Positions 1 to 61,592 of a DNA stretch of 64,000 nucleotides are shown here, piece by piece. Each line of letters opens with the position of its first letter. The stretch's first letter is position 1. The stretch is from contig JADLGE010000088.1 in NCBI GenBank assembly GCA_020849475.1, forward strand, positions 1 to 64,000. Reading direction: 5' to 3'. A program made the translations under genes and the position numbers. This DNA comes from Gammaproteobacteria bacterium. Lineage in GTDB: Bacteria; Pseudomonadota; Gammaproteobacteria; Ga0077536. A model generated the notes under the pieces. It saw only the letters and a list, made by a program, of their open reading frames with translations, made no database searches and was not told where the DNA came from.

Positions 1-1216
1 GCTCCATGCCGATGCGTCGCGCCACCATGTCGACCGCACGCTCGACCGCGAAGCGGGTCGGGAAGTGGCCGAAGGCGCGCGACGGCGTCAAGCTCGCCTT
101 GTTGGTGGTGGCGACCTTGAGGCTGATGTCGCCCGCGCCCCAGGTGTAGGCATTGGGCATTTCCACCGCGCCGAGGAACGGCATGACGAAACCCCAGTAC
201 ACACCGGTGGTGCCGCAGCCATTGTCGGCAACGCCGCGATTGCGGATCGCGAGCAGTTTGCCTTCCTTGCTGGCCGCGACCTCGAGGTAATTGATCTGAT
301 CGCGCTCCTGGCCGACGTTCATCAAGCTCTCGTAACGCGATTCCACCCAGCGCACCGGCTTTTTCAGCGCGCGCGCGGCATGCGCAATCATGATGTTCTC
401 ACGGTAGAACGGCGCCTTCACGCCGAAGCCGCCGCCCTGGTCGCGCGGCGCGATCACACGCACTTTCTCGCCGGGAATGTCGAGGATGTCAATCAAGGCC
501 AGGCGGTCGATATGCGGGCGCTGGGTGGTGATATAGGCCGTCAGCCCATCGCCGTCATTCCAGTCGCACAGCACGCCGCGCGGTTCCATGGGCGTGATGC
601 CGGTGCGGTGCACGCGGAAACGATCTTTCACCACCACGTCGGCCTTCTGGAAGATGGCTTCGACGGCGGCGGCATTGTCGCGTTGCGACTGTTCGGTCTC
701 GCCGCCGGTCAGGCTCATGGTGAAAATGTCGTTGCCACCGTCTTCTTCATGCACCAGCGGTGAGCCGGGCTCGAGCGCTGCTTCCGGATCGAGCACCGGC
801 GTCAGCTCTTCGTAATCGACCACCACCAGTTCGGCGGCGTCGACGGCGGTGTATTTGTCACGCGCGACGACCAAGGCTACTGGCTCACCGTGGAATTTCA
901 CTTTGCCAATCGCGAGTGGCCAGAAGGTCGGGTAGCGCGCCGGCAGATTGGGCTGCACCACCGCCTGCGGCATGGGCTTGATGAGATCCTTGATGGCGTC
1001 GCCGGTGAACACCGCCACTACGCCGGTCAGGGCCAGCGCCTCGGAAGTGTCGATGCTCTTGATGCGCGCATGGGCGTATTCGCTGCGCACGAACACCGCG
1101 TGCAGCATGCCGGGCAGCACCAGGTCGGCGAGATATTTGCCGGCGCCGGTGATGAGGCGCTGGTCTTCCTTGCGCGGCAGTCGCGCACCCAGCCAGTCTT
1201 GTGGATTGCTAGCCAT
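1..1216 (-). CDS. Xanthine dehydrogenase family molybdopterin-binding (large) subunit, 3' part missing
   Basis: Catalytic molybdenum-cofactor subunit of a three-part hydroxylase (Mo, 2Fe-2S and FAD subunits). Only the first 405 residues are inside the window; no stop is reached before base 1. The N-terminal domain begins MASNPQDWLGARLPRKED, and the cofactor-binding glycine motif GGGFGVK lies near residues 261-267. At the active-site loop (about 379-383) the sequence reads SRAFG. CO-oxidising form I enzymes have AYRCSFR there, so CO as substrate is not supported; the retained R, F and G resemble the YRGFG loop of other family members. The gene starts 8 bases after the 2Fe-2S subunit stops, third in an FAD, Fe-S, Mo order. 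Substrate unknown. Confidence 0.88.
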   Translation of the reverse strand, partial: MASNPQDWLGARLPRKEDQRLITGAGKYLADLVLPGMLHAVFVRSEYAHARIKSIDTSEALALTGVVAVFTGDAIKDLIKPMPQAVVQPNLPARYPTFWPLAIGKVKFHGEPVALVVARDKYTAVDAAELVVVDYEELTPVLDPEAALEPGSPLVHEEDGGNDIFTMSLTGGETEQSQRDNAAAVEAIFQKADVVVKDRFRVHRTGITPMEPRGVLCDWNDGDGLTAYITTQRPHIDRLALIDILDIPGEKVRVIAPRDQGGGFGVKAPFYRENIMIAHAARALKKPVRWVESRYESLMNVGQERDQINYLEVAASKEGKLLAIRNRGVADNGCGTTGVYWGFVMPFLGAVEMPNAYTWGAGDISLKVATTNKASLTPSRAFGHFPTRFAVERAVDMVARRIGME

Positions 1217-1224
1217 GCTTCACC

Positions 1225-1698
1225 TCACCCTTGTTCGCGCATGACGCGCGCTGCTTCGCGCACGGCGCGCACGATGTGCACATAGCCTGTGCAGCGACAC
1301 AGGTTGCCGACCAGGCCGCGTCGAATCTCGTCGTCGCTGGGGTCGGGGTTGTCACGCAGGAACTCGCTCATGTTCATGAGGATGCCCGGCGTGCAGAAGC
1401 CGCAGTGCAGGCTGTGGTTGTCGGTGAAGGCCTGCTGCAGCGGCGAGAGCTTGTCGCCGCCGAGGCCCTCGATGGTGGTGAGCGTGTGGCCATCGGCCTG
1501 CACCGCCAGCATGAGGCAGCTCTTCACCGCTTCACCATCGAGATGAATGGTGCAGGCGCCGCATACGCCTTCATAGGTGCACCCGACGTGGGTGCCGGTC
1601 AAGGCCAGTTGATCGCGCAGAAAATCGACCAGCAGCAGACGCTCGGAGACATTCTCCTCGTAGCGCGTGCCGTTGACGGTGACATTGATGACGGGCAT
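1225..1698 (-). CDS. 2Fe-2S subunit of the molybdenum hydroxylase
   Basis: A 157-residue electron-transfer subunit carrying two [2Fe-2S] clusters between the Mo and FAD subunits. The plant-ferredoxin-like N-terminal cluster uses C40, C46, C49 and C61; the spacing of the first two is C-x5-C, one residue longer than the C-x4-C I know from most family members. The C-terminal cluster is seen as HCGFCTPG and LCRCTGY. Length is typical. No export signal is present, so it is cytoplasmic. It sits between the FAD subunit (12-base gap) and the Mo subunit (8-base gap), clearly one operon. Confidence 0.93.
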   Translation of the reverse strand: MPVINVTVNGTRYEENVSERLLLVDFLRDQLALTGTHVGCTYEGVCGACTIHLDGEAVKSCLMLAVQADGHTLTTIEGLGGDKLSPLQQAFTDNHSLHCGFCTPGILMNMSEFLRDNPDPSDDEIRRGLVGNLCRCTGYVHIVRAVREAARVMREQG

Positions 1699-1710
1699 GG
1701 ATGTTTCCTC

Positions 1711-2589
1711 TTAACCGCGCGCGCGGTCGAAGGCGCGCGTCGCGACCTCGCGGCCGAGGCTGCGGATGAGTTGTTTGCGGTAGTCGGCATCGGCCGACAT
1801 GTCGCTGTGTGCGTCGGCCGCATCGGCAATCGCGCCCATGGCAGCATCGATGGCGGCCGTCTCGCCGCGGCTGCCGACGAGTTTTGCCTCGCCGAGCTTG
1901 CCGCGCTGTGCGCCATCGGCGAGACCGGCGAGCGCGATGCGCGCCGCGCTGCACTGGCCGGCGGCGTCGAGTGTGACCGTCACGGCCACGCCGATGACCG
2001 GCAGGGCGTCGGTCACCAGTCCCCATTTCTTGTAGGCGCTGCCGGTGCGTGGCGGCGGCGCCGGCCAACTGACCGACAGCAGGATTTCGTCGTCACGTCG
2101 CGCGGTTTCGAGCGGCCCCAGGAAGAAGTCATCGGCCGCGACGCTGCGTTGACTGCCGTCGGCGGCGGCGAGATTCATGGCGCCGGCCAGCGCCAGCACC
2201 ACGGTCGGCGTGCAGGCCGCGACATAGTTCCAGCACACGCTGCCGCCGATGGTGCCGCGATTGCGCACCTGGCGATCGCCGACATGGCTGGTAGCGTCGC
2301 GCAATGCGGCAAACGCGCCATCGAGTTGCCCATGGCCGGCTATCTCGACGTAGCGCGTCATGGCGCCGATGGTGAGCGCGCCATTGCTCACACTCACGCC
2401 CTTCAGTTCGGCGATGCCCTGCAGGTCGACCACGCATTGCGGGCGCAGCATGCGCGACTTGATGGCTTGCATGGCGCTCTGGCCACCTGCAAGAAATATG
2501 GCGTCGCCGGCGTCGTAGCGCGTGATGGCGGCGAGCGCTTCCGCGACGGAGCGCGGGCGTAGGTATTCTTGAATCCTGGCCGGAAACAT
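1711..2589 (-). CDS. FAD-binding subunit of the molybdenum hydroxylase
   Basis: A 292-residue FAD subunit that passes electrons from the Fe-S subunit to the final acceptor. The two FAD-pyrophosphate motifs of the family are visible as AGGQS near residue 35 and NRGTIGGSV near residue 110. The start MFPARIQEYLRP is chosen because GGGGGAG lies just upstream; an in-frame ATG 45 bases earlier has no good ribosome site. First gene of the operon. It is divergent from the SMP-30-like gene, with the promoters in the roughly 175 bases between them. Confidence 0.92.
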   Translation of the reverse strand: MFPARIQEYLRPRSVAEALAAITRYDAGDAIFLAGGQSAMQAIKSRMLRPQCVVDLQGIAELKGVSVSNGALTIGAMTRYVEIAGHGQLDGAFAALRDATSHVGDRQVRNRGTIGGSVCWNYVAACTPTVVLALAGAMNLAAADGSQRSVAADDFFLGPLETARRDDEILLSVSWPAPPPRTGSAYKKWGLVTDALPVIGVAVTVTLDAAGQCSAARIALAGLADGAQRGKLGEAKLVGSRGETAAIDAAMGAIADAADAHSDMSADADYRKQLIRSLGREVATRAFDRARG

Positions 2590-2765
2590 CGTTCTCCCCC
2601 GAGAGCTGGCGCAGCGTTCGAATGGAACGCGCAACGCCCGGATTGTAGCACCGCCTTTGCGCGCACTTGCTAGCGAGAAAAGCTTGCCCGCGGACGGCTC
2701 ACGCGCCTCTAATACCGGCCGGTCGCGGCCGTCGGTCGCGAAGTGTCAGTGGGGGAACAGCGCGC

Positions 2766-3680
2766 GTGAATTACAGCATCGAGTGTGTGGTTGCGGCCGG
2801 CAATCATCTCGGCGAAGGGCCGATCTGGGACAGCGAACAGGGCGTGTTGTACTGGGTCGATGGCACCGGCAGGCGCGTCGGCAATCCGTCCATCTGGCGT
2901 CTCGATCCGCGCACGGGTGACACCCGTCACTGGTCGCTGGATCACGATGTCGGCGCGATGGCGCTGCGGCGCGACGGCAATGCGGTGCTGGCGCTCGACG
3001 ACGGTTTCTATTTCTTCGATTTCGACAGCGGCAAGCTCGATCTCATCCACGCCATCGAACCCGAGCAACCGCGCTCGCGCTTGAACGACGGCAAGGTCGA
3101 CCGGCGCGGGCGCTTTTTCGCCGGCGGCATGGATGACAAGGAAGAGCTCAAGATGTGCGGCCTGTGGCGACTCGATCCTGATCTCGCGATCACCCGCGTC
3201 GACGAAGGCATCATCTGCTCCAACGGCCCGTGCTGGAGCCCCGATGACCGCACTTTCTATTTCGCCGATACTTTTCAGCAGCTGATGTGGGCCTACGACT
3301 ACGATCTCGCCAGCGGCACGCTGTCGAACAAGCGCGACTTCGCGAGTTCCAGCGCCGACGCCGGCTTCTACGACGGCAGCACCGTCGATGAAGAGGGCTG
3401 CATATGGAATGCGATGGTGATCGGTGGCGAACTCATTCGCTATACACCGGACGGTGAAGTCGAGCGGCGCATCGGCATGCCGGTCAGGAATATCACCAGC
3501 CTGTGCTTCGGCGGTGACAAGCTCGATGAAATCTATGTCACGTCGATGGCGCGCGTCAGCCACCCCGCCACTCACGCGCATTTCGCCAAGCAGATGCAGC
3601 CGCAATTCGGCGCCGGCAGCCTGTTCCGCATCCGGGGGCTCGGCATTCGGGGTTTCGCCGAGCCGCGTTTCGGCGGCTGA
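2766..3680 (+). CDS. SMP-30/gluconolactonase/LRE-like family protein
   Basis: A 304-residue six-bladed beta-propeller of the SMP-30/gluconolactonase family, which hydrolyses sugar-type lactones or related esters using a divalent metal. The family signatures are visible: LGEGPIWD near the N-terminus (metal-binding Glu), LNDGKVDRRGRFFAGGMDD in the middle, and YDGSTVDEEGCIW before the C-terminal blade. The GTG start at 2766 is preferred over an upstream ATG because GGGGGAAC precedes it at good spacing and homology begins there. Divergent from the molybdenum hydroxylase operon, which may reflect a shared catabolic pathway (inference). The substrate cannot be read from sequence. Confidence 0.88.
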   Translation: MNYSIECVVAAGNHLGEGPIWDSEQGVLYWVDGTGRRVGNPSIWRLDPRTGDTRHWSLDHDVGAMALRRDGNAVLALDDGFYFFDFDSGKLDLIHAIEPEQPRSRLNDGKVDRRGRFFAGGMDDKEELKMCGLWRLDPDLAITRVDEGIICSNGPCWSPDDRTFYFADTFQQLMWAYDYDLASGTLSNKRDFASSSADAGFYDGSTVDEEGCIWNAMVIGGELIRYTPDGEVERRIGMPVRNITSLCFGGDKLDEIYVTSMARVSHPATHAHFAKQMQPQFGAGSLFRIRGLGIRGFAEPRFGG

Positions 3681-3693
3681 GCAGAGCGGGGAT

Positions 3694-4731
3694 TCAGGCG
3701 CGCGCGTGCAGCGCGCGTCGCACCGCCGCAGCGAAGTGCTCGACGTCGTCGTGGCTGGTATCGAAGGACGTCACCCAGCGCGCGACCGCGTCGTTTTCGC
3801 GCCAGGTGTAGAAGTGAAATTCCTGCTGCAATGTCTCCAGCACCGCGCGCGGCAGGCGCGGGAAGAGCTGGTTGGTCTCGACTTCGCAGACGAATTCGAG
3901 ACCGGCCACATCGCTGAGCAGCGCGGCGAGACGCGCGGCCATGGCGTTGGCGTGAGCGGCCAGCGTGCGCCATAGCTCGTCATTGAGATAGGCCTCGAAC
4001 TGTGTGGCAATGAAACGCATCTTGGAGGCCAGCTGGGTGCTCTGCTTGCGCGCATAAGCGGCTTCCTCGGCCAACGCCGGATCGAATACCAGCACCGCCT
4101 CGGCGCCCATGAGGCCGTTCTTGGTGCCGCCGAAACTCAGGACATCGACGCCCACTTGCGACGACAGCGCGGCCAGCGATACATCGAGCGCGGCGGCCGC
4201 ATTGGCGAAGCGCGCGCCGTCGACATGCACCAAGAGCTTGTGGGCATGGGCGAAGTCGCACAGCGCGCGCAGTTCTTCGACGCTGTAGAGCGTGCCCCAT
4301 TCGGTCGGCTGGGTCAGTGACAGCACCCGCGGGCGGGCGTGATGCACGCCGCGCGTCGGGCCGAGCGCCGGCGCCAGCAGCGCGGGACTGAGCTTGCCGT
4401 GCTGCGCCGCTACCGGCAGCAGTTTGCCGCCGCAGTAGTGTTCCACCGCCGCGCATTCGCTGTTGAGGATATGGGCGCTGTCGGCGCACAGGATGGCGTC
4501 ATAGCGTCGCGTCACGGTGGCGAGCGCGACGACATTTGCGCCGGTGCCGCCAAAGCACAGCAAGGCTTCGGCGCCACCGCCAAACGCATCGCGCAGCGCC
4601 GCGATCGCGCGCGCCGTCCATTCGTCATTGCCATAGGCCGAGGCATGGCCGTGGTTGGCGGCGCTGATGGCGGCCAGCACGCGCGGATGGATACCCGCGC
4701 CGTTGTCACTGGCGAAGCTGCGTGCCGTCAT
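3694..4731 (-). CDS. ltaE: Low-specificity L-threonine aldolase
   Basis: A 345-residue PLP enzyme of fold type I that cleaves L-threonine or L-allo-threonine to glycine and acetaldehyde. The Schiff-base lysine is K204 in SFGGTKNG, and D171 in HVDGARF should bind the PLP ring nitrogen. The N-terminal FASDNGAGIHP segment matches the family. The start at 4731 overlaps the stop of the preceding gene as ATGA, so translation is probably coupled to the GFA-family gene. It converges on the SMP-30-like gene with a 13-base gap and no obvious terminator. Confidence 0.92.
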   Translation of the reverse strand: MTARSFASDNGAGIHPRVLAAISAANHGHASAYGNDEWTARAIAALRDAFGGGAEALLCFGGTGANVVALATVTRRYDAILCADSAHILNSECAAVEHYCGGKLLPVAAQHGKLSPALLAPALGPTRGVHHARPRVLSLTQPTEWGTLYSVEELRALCDFAHAHKLLVHVDGARFANAAAALDVSLAALSSQVGVDVLSFGGTKNGLMGAEAVLVFDPALAEEAAYARKQSTQLASKMRFIATQFEAYLNDELWRTLAAHANAMAARLAALLSDVAGLEFVCEVETNQLFPRLPRAVLETLQQEFHFYTWRENDAVARWVTSFDTSHDDVEHFAAAVRRALHARA

Positions 4732-5174
4732 GGCGCCACCACCGTCAGCGGCGACCAGTTGCGGCGCCGGCGCGCCAGGCGCTGCTCGAGATCCTCGGCC
4801 TCGAAATCGGTGTTGATACGGGCACACTGCGTGAGCGCGAGGTTGTCGAAAGTATTGGCGTTGACCACCGTGCGCAGTGCGTCTTCGAATTCGCAACGGG
4901 TCAAGGTCAGGATGCCGCAGCGGCGGCAGACCAGGAAATCGGCGCTGGCGGTGCCGAAGCGATAGGGCAGCACGGCTGCTTCATTGTCGATGCAGAGCCT
5001 GACCTCGGCCTCTGGATGGGATGTCCACAACGCGCCATGCCGCGTGCAATAGTCGCAGCCGCAGGCGCGCAAGGTTGGCGCCTCGGCCAGTGGCCAGTGC
5101 AAGCTGTAGTGCAGATTGCCGCAATGGCAGCCACCCGAGATGACGGCGGGCAGAGTCAGGAGCGTGGATGACAT
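4728..5174 (-). CDS. GFA/CENP-V family zinc protein
   Basis: A 148-residue protein of the GFA (glutathione-dependent formaldehyde-activating-like) Mss4-fold family. The zinc cysteines are GGCHCGN near residue 14, CGCDYC near 39 and CRRCG near 83. Family members bind zinc; only some have shown enzymatic roles, so no reaction is assigned. The stop overlaps the start of ltaE. It lies 38 bases downstream of the PP2C-SUMF1 gene and may be in the same transcript. Confidence 0.85.
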   Translation of the reverse strand: MSSTLLTLPAVISGGCHCGNLHYSLHWPLAEAPTLRACGCDYCTRHGALWTSHPEAEVRLCIDNEAAVLPYRFGTASADFLVCRRCGILTLTRCEFEDALRTVVNANTFDNLALTQCARINTDFEAEDLEQRLARRRRNWSPLTVVAP

Positions 5175-5212
5175 GGGGCGCCGTGGGTTGCCAGGCTGGC
5201 GCGGGACGGGCG

Positions 5213-7111
5213 TCAGTTACGCCGCACCACGCGCAGGCCGGATTGATCGTTGCCGCGTTCGACGCGCAGTTTGTCGCGCGCCGAATTGGTCAGACGGTCG
5301 GGGCCCGAACCGTAGCCACCGCCGCGCAACACGCGTACCGAGCAATCGCCGCCTTCGAACACGCCGCCGTCGCCGGGGGCGCCGTCGTAGCTCGAATGAA
5401 AGCAGTCGTAGACCCACTCCTGTGCATTGCCGGCGGTGTCATGGAGCCCGAAGGGATTGGCCTTGAAGCGCCCGACCGCGGTCGGCTGGCGCGGGTCGAG
5501 ACCGGTATCGCAGGCGAAGCAATGGGCATTGCCGCGGCCGATGCCGCGACCCCACCAGTAGGGCGTGCTGGTGCCGGCGCGCGCCGCGTATTCCCACTGT
5601 GCCTCGCTCGGCAGGCTGTATTCCTTGCCGGTCTGCTGTGACAGCCACTTGGCATAGGCCAGCGCGTCGTTCCACGACAGGAAGGTGATGGGGATGTCGT
5701 TCTGCTCGGCCATCGGCCCGAGCTTGGGCATCTTGGCGCCGGTCGCCTGGGCGAACTTGCGGTAGTCGCCGACCGTGATTTCATGCACGCCGATGGCGAA
5801 GGACTTCATGGTCACGCTGTGTTCGGGACGCTCGTCCGACGTCAGCGACAGCGGGTTGCCCATGGTGAAACTGCCGGCCGGCACCCAGGTCATGAGCGGG
5901 CCCTGTCCGCCGCCGCGCAACGCGTCGCGGAACTGGCCGCGCTTGGAGGCGGGCGCTGGCTCTGGCGTCGATTGCGTGGGGTTAGCGGCGACCGCGTCCG
6001 GTTTGGGTTTGGTCGTTTCAGCAGGCTCTATTTCGGAGTCCGGCACATCGTTCGCCGACTTGGCGGGCTGCTCGCTGTCTGTTTCAACGGCTATCTCCGG
6101 CGTAGCTTGCGCAGCGCTTGGCGTCTTGCCCTGATTCTGCAGCCAGTACCAGTAGCCACCGCCGCCCACGGCCAACAGCACCAGCACAATGGCGGCGATC
6201 ATGCCGATGCCGCCTTTGCGCGGTGCGTCATGGTCCATCCGCGACTGCGCGCGCGCACTGGCGCGCGTCGGCGCCGGCGCAGGGGGCGGCACCTCGATGC
6301 GTGGCGCCGGCGCGGGCGCGACTTCGAGCGGCGCTTCGGCTTTTTCGATGACGTCGATGACGATGACGGTGGTGTTGTCCTGGCGCGGCGCGCCGGCGTC
6401 GGTGACGGCCTGCAACAAAGCATCGACACAGGTCTTGGGGGTCGGCTGAGCGGCGCAGATATCGATGATCTGCTGCCTGTCCAGCGTATCGAGGCCGTCA
6501 CTGGAAAGAATCACGCGATCGCCGCGTTTCAGTTGCAGCGGCGATTCGGGGCAGTCGATCTCGGCGATGTCGTCACCGGTCAGCGCGCTCATCAGCATAT
6601 TGCGCGAGAAACCGGCTTCGGCCTCCACCGGGGTGCCGGCTTCGGCCATGCGATCGAGGAAGCCGCCGTAGCTGTGGTCGGCGTTCTTCTTGCTGAGATC
6701 GCCGTTACGCAGCAGGTAGAGATGACTGTCGCCGACGCTGACCCAACGCAAATTGCCGCGCTCGAGCACGCAGGCGACGAGGGTGCAGCCCATGCCCTTC
6801 AGCGCGGCGGTTTCCGACACGGTGGCGGTGATCGAGCCGTTGGCCTGCAGCACCGCTTCGTAGAGAACGTTGGAAACGTTGTCGTTGGGAAAATTCTTGG
6901 ACAGGTGGCGGTTGAAGGTCTGCACCGCCATGTTGCTGGCCACGTTGCCAGCCGCGTGACCGCCCATGCCGTCGGCCACGATCACCATGGAGCCGGCCGA
7001 ATCTGCGTCGGCGTCGCCAAGATGCGTGATCAGGAACGCGTCTTCCTGATAGTCCCTAGCCCCGTCTATCTGCGATCCTGAGATGTCGAAGCTTAAGACG
7101 CTCAAAGGCAT
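5213..7111 (-). CDS. PP2C-type protein phosphatase fused to a membrane segment and a SUMF1-like domain
   Basis: A 632-residue three-part protein. Residues about 8-255 are a PP2C Ser/Thr phosphatase with the metal motifs intact: RDYQEDAF (20-27), VADGMGGH (45-52), SSDGLDTL (203-210) and QDNTTVIV (244-251). Residues 256-300 are a Pro/Ala linker ending in basic residues. Residues 301-324 form one hydrophobic helix, and 325-395 are a Pro/Glu/Ala-rich spacer. Residues 405-632 are a formylglycine-generating-enzyme (SUMF1) fold, with the GLHDTAGNAQEW, RVLRGGGY and GLRVVRRN landmarks. The catalytic cysteine pair of true FGEs is not visible in the C-terminal core, so this domain probably binds rather than oxidises. 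Expected topology is phosphatase inside, SUMF1 domain in the periplasm. In the type VI secretion phosphorylation pathway PppA (PP2C) and TagR (SUMF1-like) are separate proteins; no kinase or secretion gene is nearby here. Confidence 0.9.
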   Translation of the reverse strand: MPLSVLSFDISGSQIDGARDYQEDAFLITHLGDADADSAGSMVIVADGMGGHAAGNVASNMAVQTFNRHLSKNFPNDNVSNVLYEAVLQANGSITATVSETAALKGMGCTLVACVLERGNLRWVSVGDSHLYLLRNGDLSKKNADHSYGGFLDRMAEAGTPVEAEAGFSRNMLMSALTGDDIAEIDCPESPLQLKRGDRVILSSDGLDTLDRQQIIDICAAQPTPKTCVDALLQAVTDAGAPRQDNTTVIVIDVIEKAEAPLEVAPAPAPRIEVPPPAPAPTRASARAQSRMDHDAPRKGGIGMIAAIVLVLLAVGGGGYWYWLQNQGKTPSAAQATPEIAVETDSEQPAKSANDVPDSEIEPAETTKPKPDAVAANPTQSTPEPAPASKRGQFRDALRGGGQGPLMTWVPAGSFTMGNPLSLTSDERPEHSVTMKSFAIGVHEITVGDYRKFAQATGAKMPKLGPMAEQNDIPITFLSWNDALAYAKWLSQQTGKEYSLPSEAQWEYAARAGTSTPYWWGRGIGRGNAHCFACDTGLDPRQPTAVGRFKANPFGLHDTAGNAQEWVYDCFHSSYDGAPGDGGVFEGGDCSVRVLRGGGYGSGPDRLTNSARDKLRVERGNDQSGLRVVRRN

Positions 7112-56321: not shown

Positions 56322-56342
56322 AAAAAAAACAGCCGGCCGGCT
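56322..56342 (-). terminator. Terminator candidate of the HD-GYP gene
   Basis: The palindrome AGCCGGCCGGCT (56331-56342) overlaps the HD-GYP stop codon and is followed on the minus strand by eight T residues. The stem is short because the palindrome has no spacer. Confidence 0.4.
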
Positions 56343-57573
56343 AATCCTGTAACGACGTCCAGATCTGATCGAATTCCTGGTGATGATCGCTGAAGAGCTC
56401 GATGAGCTTCGGATCGAAATGCCCATGGGGATCGATGCGCTCGTCGCCCTTGGTCAGGATGCTGACCGCCTGCGCATGGGAAAACGACGGCTTGTAGGGA
56501 CGCTCCGAACGTAGCGCGTCGTAGATGTCGGCGAGCTGCACGATGCGTGCCGACATTGGAATGTTGTCGCCGGCAATCTTGTTCGGGTAGCCGGTGCCGT
56601 CCCACTTCTCGTGATGATAGAGCGCTATCTCGGCGCCAAGCGAGAGGCGCGGCGAGGCGGTCAGGATCTGGTAGCCGTACTCGGTATGGCGATTCATTTC
56701 CTCGCGCTCGTCCGGCGTCAACGGACCTTTCTTCTTCAGCACCGCCGCATCCACGCTCATCTTGCCGACGTCATGCAGCTGCGCGCTGTAACGCAGTTCC
56801 TCGCACCAGTCGTCGTCCAGCCCCAGGCGCTTGGCGATGGCGTAGCTGTATTCGTTGACGCGGATGATGTGGTTGCCGGTCTCCTCGTCATGAATTTCGG
56901 CGGCGCGGGCGAGCAGGGTGACCGACACCTTGAAGGCGGCCTCGGTCTCTTCCTGCAGGGCGGCGATGCGTGCGCGCTGTTCGGCGAGCTGGCGATTGCG
57001 GGTCGAGAGGGTTTTGTTCTTGGCGCGAATCTGGTCGAGCATCTCGGCGCGCTCGATGGAGTGACCCACCACGCGCGCTATCGGCGCCACCAGCTGTTCG
57101 ACGTCCCGCGGAAAGGCCGACAGCTTGCGGCTCTTGCCGGTGCGGCGGTTGATCAACTGCACGACGCCAATCACATCGTTCTGCAGGTTGCGCAGCGGAA
57201 AGCAGAACATCGAATGGGTCTTGTAATTGCGCCGTTCGAATTTGGGGTCGAACTTGTAGGGGCTGCGCGGTGGAATCTTGTAGACGTCGTCGATGAGCAC
57301 GGTGCGGCCCTTGTGCGCGACGTAGCCGGCGATGGTGCCGGAGCCGATGGGCACGATGAAATCCGCGCTTTTGACCTTGATGGCGTCGTTCTGAATGCTG
57401 GCCGGTTCCAGCCAGCGGGCGCGGCCGCGGGAGCGGGCGATGAAAATGGTGCCGGCCTCGGCGCCGGTCATGAGCCGGCTTTTTTGCAGCACCTTGTCCA
57501 GCAGTTGGCTTGCCGACTGGTTCTTCTGACCTTCGACAAACTGCAGAAACTCGAGAACCAGGTCTGAACTCAC
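56341..57573 (-). CDS. GAF and HD-GYP domain protein (cyclic-di-GMP phosphodiesterase type)
   Basis: A 410-residue cytoplasmic signalling protein. A GAF domain (about 10-175) is followed by a coiled coil (about 180-220) and an HD-GYP domain (about 225-400). The HD-GYP motifs are intact: HDEETGNHIIRVNEY, LHDVGKM, HHEKWDGTGYPNKIAG and LADIYDALRSERPYK. HD-GYP proteins hydrolyse c-di-GMP. The GTG start at 57573 is chosen because CGAGGA lies 8 bases upstream; the frame is open to 57639. The GAF ligand is unknown. Confidence 0.9.
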   Translation of the reverse strand: MSSDLVLEFLQFVEGQKNQSASQLLDKVLQKSRLMTGAEAGTIFIARSRGRARWLEPASIQNDAIKVKSADFIVPIGSGTIAGYVAHKGRTVLIDDVYKIPPRSPYKFDPKFERRNYKTHSMFCFPLRNLQNDVIGVVQLINRRTGKSRKLSAFPRDVEQLVAPIARVVGHSIERAEMLDQIRAKNKTLSTRNRQLAEQRARIAALQEETEAAFKVSVTLLARAAEIHDEETGNHIIRVNEYSYAIAKRLGLDDDWCEELRYSAQLHDVGKMSVDAAVLKKKGPLTPDEREEMNRHTEYGYQILTASPRLSLGAEIALYHHEKWDGTGYPNKIAGDNIPMSARIVQLADIYDALRSERPYKPSFSHAQAVSILTKGDERIDPHGHFDPKLIELFSDHHQEFDQIWTSLQD

Positions 57574-57691
57574 GCGCAATCCTCGTGGTGATTCTTGATC
57601 GGGCCGGGCCCTCGCTGCGGGGCCGTCAAACCATAGCACAAAGTGTGCGGCGCCAAGAGTGTGCGGGGGCCGCGCGCGAGGCGGCTTCGGC

Positions 57692-57745: not shown

Positions 57746-60700
57746 ATGACCACTTCCTTTCTTGAAATCAAGGCACTCGATCTGCCGCAGCTTGAGCAGG
57801 CCATGCTCGACATCTGGGCCGCCGAGGACACCTTCGCCGCCAGTATCTCTTCGCGTGCCGATGCGCCGTCCTTCACCTTCTACGAAGGACCACCGACCGC
57901 CAACGGCAGGCCGGGCATCCACCATGTGCTGGGGCGCACCATCAAGGACGTGTTCTGTCGCTACAAGACCCTGAAAGGCTATCGCGTCGAGCGCAAGGGC
58001 GGCTGGGATACCCACGGTTTGCCGGTCGAGATTGAAGTCGAAAAAGAACTGGGCCTGGACGGCCGCGCGGAAGTCGAGAAATACGGCATCGAAGCGTTCA
58101 ACGCCGCCTGTCGCGCCAGCGTGTTGCGCTACAAGAAGGACTGGGACGAACTGACGCGCCGCATCGGCTACTGGGTCGATCTGGAAACGCCCTACGTCAC
58201 CTTCCACAACGAGTACATCGAATCGGTGTGGTGGCTGTTGAAGCAGATGTACGAGCGCGATCTGCTGTTCAAGGGTTACAAGATCCAGTGGTACAGCCCC
58301 GGCAGCGGCACGGTGCTGTCGTCCCATGAAGTGAGCCTGGGTTACGAGGAAGTGACCGACCCCAGCGTCTACGTGCGCTTTCGCGACGCCGAGGACGCGG
58401 GTCTCTCCTATCTGGCCTGGACCACCACGCCCTGGACCTTGCCGTCCAATGTCGCGCTGGTGGTGGGTGAGGAACTCGATTACGTGACGGTGCAGCAGGG
58501 CGAGGAGCGCCTGGTGCTGGCGACCGCGCGCCTCGCGGCGCTGGAGGGCGAGTACGCGGTGCTCGAACACCATCGCGGTCGCGACTTGATGGGCCGGCGC
58601 TACCAGCCGCTGTATCGCGTCGAAGGAGTGGACTACCCGGCCGACTGCTGGCGCATCGCCAGCGCCGACTATGTGACCGTCGAGGACGGCACGGGCATGG
58701 TGCATATCGCGCCGGCCTTCGGCGCCGAGGACTACGAGGTGGGTCGTCGCGAGAACCTGCCGATGGTCAACCCGGTCGCGCCGGACGGCAAGTTCACTGC
58801 CGCCGTGCCGCTGGTCGCGAACCTGTGGTTCAAGGACGCCGACAAACCGATCATGCGCGATCTGAAAGAGCGCGGCCTGCTCTACAAGCGTGTCGATTAC
58901 CTGCACAACTATCCCCATGACTGGCGCAAGGGCACGCCGCTCATGAGCTACCCGGTCGAATCCTGGTTCGTGCGCACCACTGCCGAGAAGGACCGCCTGG
59001 TCAATCTCAACCAGACCATCCACTGGCATCCGCCCGCCATTCGCGATGGCCGCTTCGGCAACTGGCTTGAGAACAACGTCGACTGGGCGCTGTCACGCAA
59101 GCGCTATTGGGGCACGCCGCTGCCGATCTGGGTGTCGGACGCGCCGGGCTCAAGTTATTTCGAAGTGATCGGTTCCATCGCCGAACTGCGCGAGAAGTGT
59201 GGCAAGGACTTGCCGGAAGGCGATGCGCTCGACCTGCATCGACCGTTCGTCGATGCCTACACCTGGCCGGCGCCGGACGGCGGCACCATGCGCCGCGTGC
59301 CTGACGTGCTCGACGTGTGGTTCGATTCGGGCGCCATGCCGTTCGCGCAATGGCATTACCCGTTCGAGAACAAGGAAGCCTTCGAGCGCAATTTCCCGGC
59401 GGATTTCATCTGCGAAGGTGTCGATCAGACGCGTGGCTGGTTCTACACCCTGCATGCCATCGCGACCCTGGTGAAGCACGACGTCGCGTTCAAGAACGTG
59501 GTAGTGAACGGGCTCATTCTCGACGAGAAAGGCGAGAAAATGTCCAAGTCCAAGGGCAACACCATCAACCCCATGGAGGTGGTGGGCCGCTACGGCGCCG
59601 ACGTCGTGCGCTGGTACATGATGAGTAACTCGCCACCGTGGGACAACATGAAGTTCGCCGAGCGCGGCCTGGCTGAAACCCGCGGCAAGTTCTTTGGCAC
59701 CATCGAGAACGTCTACCGTTTCATGGCGAGCTACGCCAACATCGATGGCTTCGTCGGCTCGGAAGCGCCGATTCCGGCGCGTGAACGCAGTGAGCTCGAC
59801 CAGTGGATCCTGAGCCGTCTGAATTCCACCATCGCGCTCGCCGATCAGTCTCTCGAAAGCTACGACTGCACGCGCGCCGCGCGCGCCATGGAGCAGTTCG
59901 TCGAAGAGCTTTCCAACTGGTATATCCGCCGTTCGCGGCCGCGCTTCTGGGCGGCCAAGAAGGCCAGCGCCAGCACCGAGACGGTGTCCGTGCACGACAA
60001 GCTCGCCGCCTACCAGACCACCTTCGACTGCCTTTTCGGTCTCGCGGTCATGATGAGTCCGGTGGCGCCGTTCTTCGCCGACTGGCTGTATCGTCGTCTG
60101 AACGAAGTGGTCAAGCGCGACGCCGCGCCGTCGGTGCATCTCGCGCGTTTCCCGGTGGCCGATGAGAGCGTCATCGATGCCGGTCTCGAAGCGCGCATGG
60201 AGCTCGCGCGCACCGTCGTGCAGCTGGTGCTGCTGCTGCGCAATCGCAGCCACATCAACGTGCGCCAGCCGCTGTCGCGCATGCTGCTGGTCATCGGCCA
60301 TGCGGTTGAGCAGGCGGAAGTCGAACGGGTGCGCGACATCATTCTCGATGAAGTGAACGTGCGCGCCATCGAATACATCGCCGACTCCAGCGGTGTGGTG
60401 AAGTGCTCGGCCAAGGCCGACTTCAAGAAGCTCGGGCCGCGCCTCGGCAAACAGATGAAGGCGGTGGCGGCGCGGATTGCCGCGCTCGGCGACGCCGAGA
60501 TTCGCGCGTTCCAGGCCGCTGGCAAGATAGACGTGACGGTCGATGGCGCCGTCATCGAGGTTGGCGCTGACGAGGTCGATATCCTGTCGGAGGAGATCGG
60601 CGCGTGGACCGTGGCCCAGGATGGCGGCATCACCGTCGCGCTCGACGTGCAGATTGATGACGAGCTGCGCGCCCAGGGCCATGCCCGTGAAGTGGTCAAC

Positions 60701-60934
60701 CGCATCCAGGGCATGCGCAAGACGGCGGATCTCGATCTCACCGATCGCATCCGCGTGCAGTACCAGGCGTCGACGGCGCTGGCGGCGTCGACGGCGGCCA
60801 ATCGCGATTTCATCTGTCGCGAGACGCTGGCGATGGAACTCGCCGAAGCAGCGGAGCCAAAGGGTGACTGGGCGGAGCGCTTCGAGATCGGTGACGAATC
60901 CATCGTGGTCGCCATCACGCGTTCTGCGGTATAA
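57746..60934 (+). CDS. ileS: Isoleucyl-tRNA synthetase, type 2, with GXHH signature
   Basis: A 1062-residue class I synthetase. Its length and sequence (FYEGPPTANGRPGIHH, FCRYKTLKGYRVERKGGWDTHGLPVE) place it with the long type 2 enzymes seen in eukaryotes and Bacteroidetes, not the ~940-residue type 1 usual in Gammaproteobacteria. The canonical HIGH motif is replaced by GIHH (residues 58-61): first and third positions are swapped. The KMSKS motif is GEKMSKSKGN. The CP1 editing region (TTTPWTLPSNVAL, GTGMVHIAPAFGAEDYEVG) is intact. The start at ATG 57746 follows a TATAAT. It is the only ileS in the window. Confidence 0.95.
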   Translation: MTTSFLEIKALDLPQLEQAMLDIWAAEDTFAASISSRADAPSFTFYEGPPTANGRPGIHHVLGRTIKDVFCRYKTLKGYRVERKGGWDTHGLPVEIEVEKELGLDGRAEVEKYGIEAFNAACRASVLRYKKDWDELTRRIGYWVDLETPYVTFHNEYIESVWWLLKQMYERDLLFKGYKIQWYSPGSGTVLSSHEVSLGYEEVTDPSVYVRFRDAEDAGLSYLAWTTTPWTLPSNVALVVGEELDYVTVQQGEERLVLATARLAALEGEYAVLEHHRGRDLMGRRYQPLYRVEGVDYPADCWRIASADYVTVEDGTGMVHIAPAFGAEDYEVGRRENLPMVNPVAPDGKFTAAVPLVANLWFKDADKPIMRDLKERGLLYKRVDYLHNYPHDWRKGTPLMSYPVESWFVRTTAEKDRLVNLNQTIHWHPPAIRDGRFGNWLENNVDWALSRKRYWGTPLPIWVSDAPGSSYFEVIGSIAELREKCGKDLPEGDALDLHRPFVDAYTWPAPDGGTMRRVPDVLDVWFDSGAMPFAQWHYPFENKEAFERNFPADFICEGVDQTRGWFYTLHAIATLVKHDVAFKNVVVNGLILDEKGEKMSKSKGNTINPMEVVGRYGADVVRWYMMSNSPPWDNMKFAERGLAETRGKFFGTIENVYRFMASYANIDGFVGSEAPIPARERSELDQWILSRLNSTIALADQSLESYDCTRAARAMEQFVEELSNWYIRRSRPRFWAAKKASASTETVSVHDKLAAYQTTFDCLFGLAVMMSPVAPFFADWLYRRLNEVVKRDAAPSVHLARFPVADESVIDAGLEARMELARTVVQLVLLLRNRSHINVRQPLSRMLLVIGHAVEQAEVERVRDIILDEVNVRAIEYIADSSGVVKCSAKADFKKLGPRLGKQMKAVAARIAALGDAEIRAFQAAGKIDVTVDGAVIEVGADEVDILSEEIGAWTVAQDGGITVALDVQIDDELRAQGHAREVVNRIQGMRKTADLDLTDRIRVQYQASTALAASTAANRDFICRETLAMELAEAAEPKGDWAERFEIGDESIVVAITRSAV

Positions 60935-60962: not shown

Positions 60963-61592
60963 ATGTGGCAGGCAATGGGAACCGTGCGCACTGTGATGCG
61001 CGTGGTCGCGGTGGTCTCGCTGGTGCTGCTGACGGCGCCGGTGATGGCCGCCAGCACACCGACCGATACCGTCAAGGACGCCATCAACCAGGTCATCGCC
61101 GAATTGAAGGGCCACAGCCTCGAGCGCGAACAGCGCTGGGCCAGCATCGGCCGCATCATCAACGACCGCTTCGATTTCCGCAGCATGTCGCAGAGCGTGC
61201 TGGCGACCAACTGGCAGGACGCGACCACCGAAGAGAAGCGTCAGTTCGTCGAATATTTCTCCCAGTACCTCGAAGACACCTACCGCACCAAGATTGAGTC
61301 CTACTCCGATCAGCGCGTCGAATACATCGCCGAGCAGGTCCGCAAGGACCGCGCCACCGTCGACACCGCGGTCGTCACCAGCGACAAGCGCATTCCCATC
61401 ACCTACCGATTGAAGTTCACCAAGGGCGAGTGGGTCGCCTACGATGTCGTCATCGAAGGCGTGAGCCTGGTGAACAACTACCGCAGCACCTTCAGCGCGA
61501 TTGTGAAAGCCGGCGGCATGGACGGCCTCTTGACCGATCTCGAAGGACGCATCTCCGATTACAAGGCCAAGCATGGCGGGTTGCCGCCCTGA
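60963..61592 (+). CDS. MlaC/Ttg2D-like periplasmic phospholipid-binding protein
   Basis: A roughly 209-residue exported protein with a signal peptide (VRTVMRVVAVVSLVLLTAPVMA). The mature part shows the MlaC pattern: RFDFRSMSQSVLATNW, EEKRQFVEYFSQYLEDTY, then VVIEGVSLVNNYRSTFSAIV. MlaC carries phospholipids between the outer-membrane and inner-membrane Mla complexes. No other mla gene is adjacent. ATG at 60939 is an alternative start, just 4 bases after ileS, so co-transcription with ileS is likely. Confidence 0.87.
   Translation: MWQAMGTVRTVMRVVAVVSLVLLTAPVMAASTPTDTVKDAINQVIAELKGHSLEREQRWASIGRIINDRFDFRSMSQSVLATNWQDATTEEKRQFVEYFSQYLEDTYRTKIESYSDQRVEYIAEQVRKDRATVDTAVVTSDKRIPITYRLKFTKGEWVAYDVVIEGVSLVNNYRSTFSAIVKAGGMDGLLTDLEGRISDYKAKHGGLPP

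Follow-up and report, generated by a model that had tools for sequence, protein, structure and literature searches.

The window analysed here, a stretch of DNA of 64,000 nucleotides, carries on its forward strand the gene ileS2 (57746–60934), a single ATG-start open frame encoding a type 2 isoleucyl-tRNA synthetase (IleRS2) of 1062 amino acids. Its divergent neighbour on the reverse strand encodes a GAF and HD-GYP-like protein (56341–57639), in a synteny kept across much of the family, and an MlaC-like protein is encoded immediately downstream on the forward strand (61014–61592), in a synteny kept within the family. The ileS2 product scored 911.7 bits against the NCBIfam model TIGR00392 (ileS; cut-off value of 621.4), which identifies it as an isoleucyl-tRNA synthetase, and it contains the Pfam domains tRNA-synt_1, Anticodon_1 and DUF5915. 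The last of these, the type 2 C-terminal domain, was matched with 185 bits at residues 864–1059 (60335–60922; forward strand), and the protein has no CxxC zinc motif, two of which are found in the C-terminal part of all 11 gammaproteobacterial type 1 enzymes (IleRS1) compared; the presence of DUF5915 together with the missing CxxC pair indicates a type 2 C-terminus, in agreement with the type 2 assignment of the initial annotation. Identity to gammaproteobacterial IleRS1 was 26–31%, and the IleRS tree separated the window protein from IleRS1 with 100% support and grouped it with the type 2 enzymes.

The forward-strand active-site motifs were then placed on this frame. The class I HIGH signature reads GIHH (GGC ATC CAC CAT; residues 57–60, 57914–57925), with its first and third positions exchanged; the initial annotation had already noted this swap, and in the alignment GIHH falls exactly at the HIGH position (context GPPTANGRPGIHHVLGRTIKDV, also given as GPPTANGRPGIHHVLGRTIKD). 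The KMSKS loop is canonical (residues 598–602; 59537–59551), so that the protein combines G/A-X-H-H at the HIGH site with a retained KMSKS, the combination that defines the GXHH subset of IleRS2. The CP1 editing domain carries WTTTPWTLPSN (residues 225–235; 58418–58450), which is kept in the Priestia megaterium enzyme PmIleRS2. The staphylococcal resistance enzymes MupA and MupB belong to the same IleRS2 superfamily, but the window gene is a chromosomal sole copy, and with 845 and 818 bits it scored below both NCBIfam exception cut-offs (1900 for each of NF000257 and NF000258); an identity with either was rejected.

Comparison with published enzymes provides an expectation for the function of this motif. 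A sizeable subset of IleRS2 carries the G/AXHH motif (Brkic et al. 2023, PMC10485003), including the enzymes of Streptomyces griseus and Deinococcus radiodurans, which are likewise normal type 2 synthetases with exchanged HIGH positions 1 and 3 and a KMSKS loop; the window enzyme differs from them in that its host is a whole gammaproteobacterial order in which ileS1 is gone from its operon. The same study reported mupirocin Ki values of 35–6600 µM for G/AXHH IleRS2 versus 0.2–8 µM for HXGH IleRS2. The natural ALHH enzyme of D. radiodurans had a Ki of 6.6 mM that became 823-fold lower once the canonical order was restored, two canonical IleRS2 given the reverse swap showed a Ki increase of about 200-fold or more, and IleRS1 was inactive after the swap (PMC10485003). 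These reports match the statement of the initial annotation that GXHH marks a subset of type 2 enzymes that is active and strongly resistant to mupirocin. Structurally, the third-position His was described as taking over the role of the first, and was modelled to clash with bound mupirocin (PMC10485003). The best PDB match of the window protein was the engineered GVHH mutant of P. megaterium IleRS2 (8c8w; 923.9 bits, residues 15–1056 aligned), above the canonical-motif chains 8c8u and 8c8v (918.5 bits), and for this close homologue a full-length crystal structure exists. Wild-type PmIleRS2 has HVGH and stands alongside an IleRS1 in one genome, whereas the window enzyme has GIHH and is the sole copy. 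Two IleRS1 contacts to mupirocin appear to be absent from the window enzyme, as judged from motif spacing: the Asn70 position is probably occupied by Gly63 and the Phe586 position by Leu590, the latter being His582 in PmIleRS2. Taken together, the missing contacts and the published effect of the swap lead us to expect mupirocin resistance of the window enzyme, by analogy with its homologues. In whole organisms, mupirocin tolerance is confounded by Gram-negative permeability and efflux.

Within its own assembly, a 137-contig draft rated 95.8% complete, ileS2 is the only ileS. The remaining class I matches are ValRS, LeuRS, MetRS and CysRS; a tRNA-synt_1 match on contig C4 was considered as a second ileS and rejected, as it is ValRS. 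The gene rpoB was also not found in this draft despite its completeness rating, presumably owing to an assembly gap, an observation that bears on claims of absence. In nine of nine GXHH genomes checked from other gammaproteobacterial families exactly one ileS was present. The ileS2 gene thus stands as the single ileS, consistent with the housekeeping role first assigned to it, and its standing as the only copy of an essential gene suggests that the enzyme is catalytically active in isoleucine activation.

In Gammaproteobacteria, ileS normally lies between ribF and lspA. The ancestral operon order is murJ-ribF-[ileS]-lspA-ispH, and contig C30 of the window's assembly keeps murJ, ribF, lspA and ispH in this order with ileS missing and with ribF and lspA overlapping. 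All 19 type 1 gammaproteobacteria compared have ileS1 immediately upstream of lspA, whereas ribF directly precedes lspA in each of 18 type 2 genomes, the hit ends lying −10 to 129 nt apart; no ileS1 remnant was detected between the two genes in any of these 18 genomes, which span families f1, f26, f96, f120, f140, f161 and f162 (GXHH) and f189 (HXGH). Nothing in the data speaks more strongly than this operon scar for the replacement of a resident type 1 gene by a type 2 gene. In the Salinisphaera-like genomes G205 and G312, lspA is present as two or three paralogues, and a single one of them lies in the murJ-ribF operon. The operon also bears on the reading in which IleRS2 serves only as an additional copy for resistance and the main type 1 ileS was missed: a 137-contig draft without rpoB leaves some room for it, but the slot that ileS1 fills in the 19 type 1 relatives was recovered in the assembly with ribF joined to lspA, and a second or type 1 ileS was seen in none of the order's genomes, so we regard it as highly improbable. 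Loss of a second ileS from the draft through incompleteness is possible in principle but unlikely given the operon gap and the relatives. The initial annotation had named a main type 1 ileS elsewhere in the genome as the finding that would overturn its proposal; the search of the assembly returned none, and the operon survives without ileS.

To describe the distribution of the gene within the host's order, we used a sample of 36 genomes, all from one family. GIHH was present in all 26 genomes with an assembled N-terminus, which argues against a chance occurrence of the exchanged motif. Nine genomes had no match at 1e-150. On direct searching, four of these proved to carry type 2 genes truncated at the end of a contig, and the other five, all drafts, yielded no IleRS of any type; a type 1 gene was thus indicated in none of the nine. 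Family drafts G001 and G033 (94% and 92% complete) yielded neither IleRS type, presumably through assembly gaps. The neighbourhood cysS-sufE-(HD-GYP)-ileS2-mlaC is common to much of the family and recurs in several separately assembled MAGs; these neighbours were not found beside ileS2 in loci of other clades or of Rhodothermota, some of which offered a flank of 1.5 kb only. The conserved GIHH and neighbours indicate that the replacement is older than the family and was inherited vertically within it. A record titled Klebsiella pneumoniae isolate ZE-13nov19-135 (CAMCBY010000218.1) encodes an IleRS2 that is 92% identical to that of the window with the same neighbours, and its organism name is almost surely wrong.

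The closest sequences outside the class are those of Rhodothermota and Balneolota, with 53–62% identity over the full length; they share GXHH and differ from the window gene in phylum and gene neighbourhood. Such proximity would also result if a piece of a Rhodothermota genome had ended up in a gammaproteobacterial MAG during binning. Such contamination is nevertheless the least credible of the explanations considered, because several MAGs of the family, assembled independently, have the gene with its cysS-sufE-HD-GYP-mlaC neighbours, none of these neighbours was matched beside it in the tested loci of Rhodothermota, GC is 63.4% against 64.8% for the window, and the complementary loss of ileS1 sits on another contig.

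We therefore favour, with a probability of about 0.9, a sole housekeeping IleRS2 related to those of Rhodothermota and Balneolota that was acquired by the ancestor of the order, followed by the loss of ileS1, with hyper-resistance to mupirocin as a prediction. The ancestor of the whole order would have gained the type 2 gene, and the resident type 1 gene would then have been lost from the murJ-ribF-ileS-lspA-ispH operon. The present enzyme would carry out isoleucine activation and the charging of tRNA-Ile as class I synthetases normally do. In this reading the His at position three of GIHH probably substitutes for the first His of HIGH, as the published PmIleRS2 mutant structures indicate, and would also collide with bound mupirocin.

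The number of such events was evaluated with the IleRS tree. Clade A (families f1, f120, f140 and f96, including the window protein) lies among Rhodothermia, far from gammaproteobacterial IleRS1, and clade B (f26 and f162, with records named Oceanococcus and Salinisphaera) also lies among Rhodothermia. The initial annotation had suggested a phylogeny of both enzyme types and had anticipated a horizontal replacement; the grouping of the window protein with Rhodothermota type 2 rather than with gammaproteobacterial IleRS1, together with the empty ribF-lspA slot, supports that view. The GXHH IleRS2 of f161 groups with Caldilineae and Anaerolineae of Chloroflexota. Most families of the order that includes f161 have the type 1 enzyme; f161 itself has GIHH, and f189 has a canonical HXGH type 2 enzyme (L224 and L256 in G420, L241 in G408; GPPFATGLPHHGH) with KMSKR; the f189 sequences, which stand outside the tree, were compared by identity alone, at about 41% to other type 2 sequences. 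Genome G420 shows the same ribF-lspA gap as the other type 2 genomes, and f189 is an independent replacement. With clades A and B counted together, and with f161 and f189, type 2 was acquired at least three times in Gammaproteobacteria. Across an even draw of 369 gammaproteobacterial genomes, 13 (~3.5%) carry GXHH and 2, both of family f130, carry an HXGH type 2-like motif, the other pattern matches being due to chance. The f130 motifs read PHCGH and PHHGH (G276:C1:328289-328327 and G371:C1:251743-251781) and occur in reduced genomes of about 1 Mb.

In the IleRS trees, support was weak for the branches that connect the gammaproteobacterial clades with subclades of Rhodothermia, and for this reason a donor can be named only tentatively. 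We infer that transfer was into Gammaproteobacteria from type 1 being the norm of the class; the dating of the transfer and its selective agent would likewise be matters of interpretation. Clades A and B may themselves go back to a single entry into Gammaproteobacteria, from which the gene then passed between lineages of the class, a refinement of the favoured explanation to which we give slightly less than even odds: their monophyly was not rejected on the IleRS tree (p-AU 0.49), while it was weakly rejected on RpoB (p-AU 0.035) and one faster tree placed a Rhodothermaceae sequence with B (97). The RpoB result speaks against common vertical descent, yet not against spread within the class. 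As to the cause, the exchange may be near-neutral in IleRS2 and the gene uptake unrelated to mupirocin-like antibiotics, a rival to the selective cause only. A published natural non-canonical enzyme is as efficient as canonical IleRS2, and a natural reversion is known (PMC10485003), but the two positions must switch jointly, and neither HXHH nor GXGH intermediates were found among the 369 gammaproteobacterial genomes, unlike the expectation for free drift; we consider this a possible but not a probable account. Somewhat more doubtful still is the proposal that at least three replacements of type 1 by type 2, from Rhodothermota-like, Chloroflexota-like and HXGH sources, each with ileS1 dropping out of the same slot and mostly with GXHH already swapped, reflect repeated mupirocin-like selection.

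A 2016 study (PMC4861432) describes IleRS1 as the general form in proteobacteria and mentions alphaproteobacteria in connection with IleRS2 transfer; this is in line with the initial view that Gammaproteobacteria usually have type 1. The main text of the 2023 study (PMC10485003) makes no mention of proteobacteria, and some of the present cases may already be in the trees of the supplements to the two studies. Already known are the IleRS2 type, the swapped motif and its tie to mupirocin hyper-resistance (PMC10485003); what is new is that an essential gene has been taken over throughout an order, leaving an operon scar, and that this recurs elsewhere in the class. The analysis thereby goes beyond the replacement first proposed for this gene: the feature characterises the order as a whole, and Gammaproteobacteria have undergone comparable replacements repeatedly. 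Across the order, a foreign and probably drug-insensitive form has taken the place of an essential translation enzyme, with the scar of the loss still legible. These natural replicate replacements provide a test set for the published proposal that ileS2 spreads because it confers antibiotic resistance, and they raise the possibility of intrinsic insensitivity to mupirocin-type IleRS inhibitors in entire gammaproteobacterial groups.
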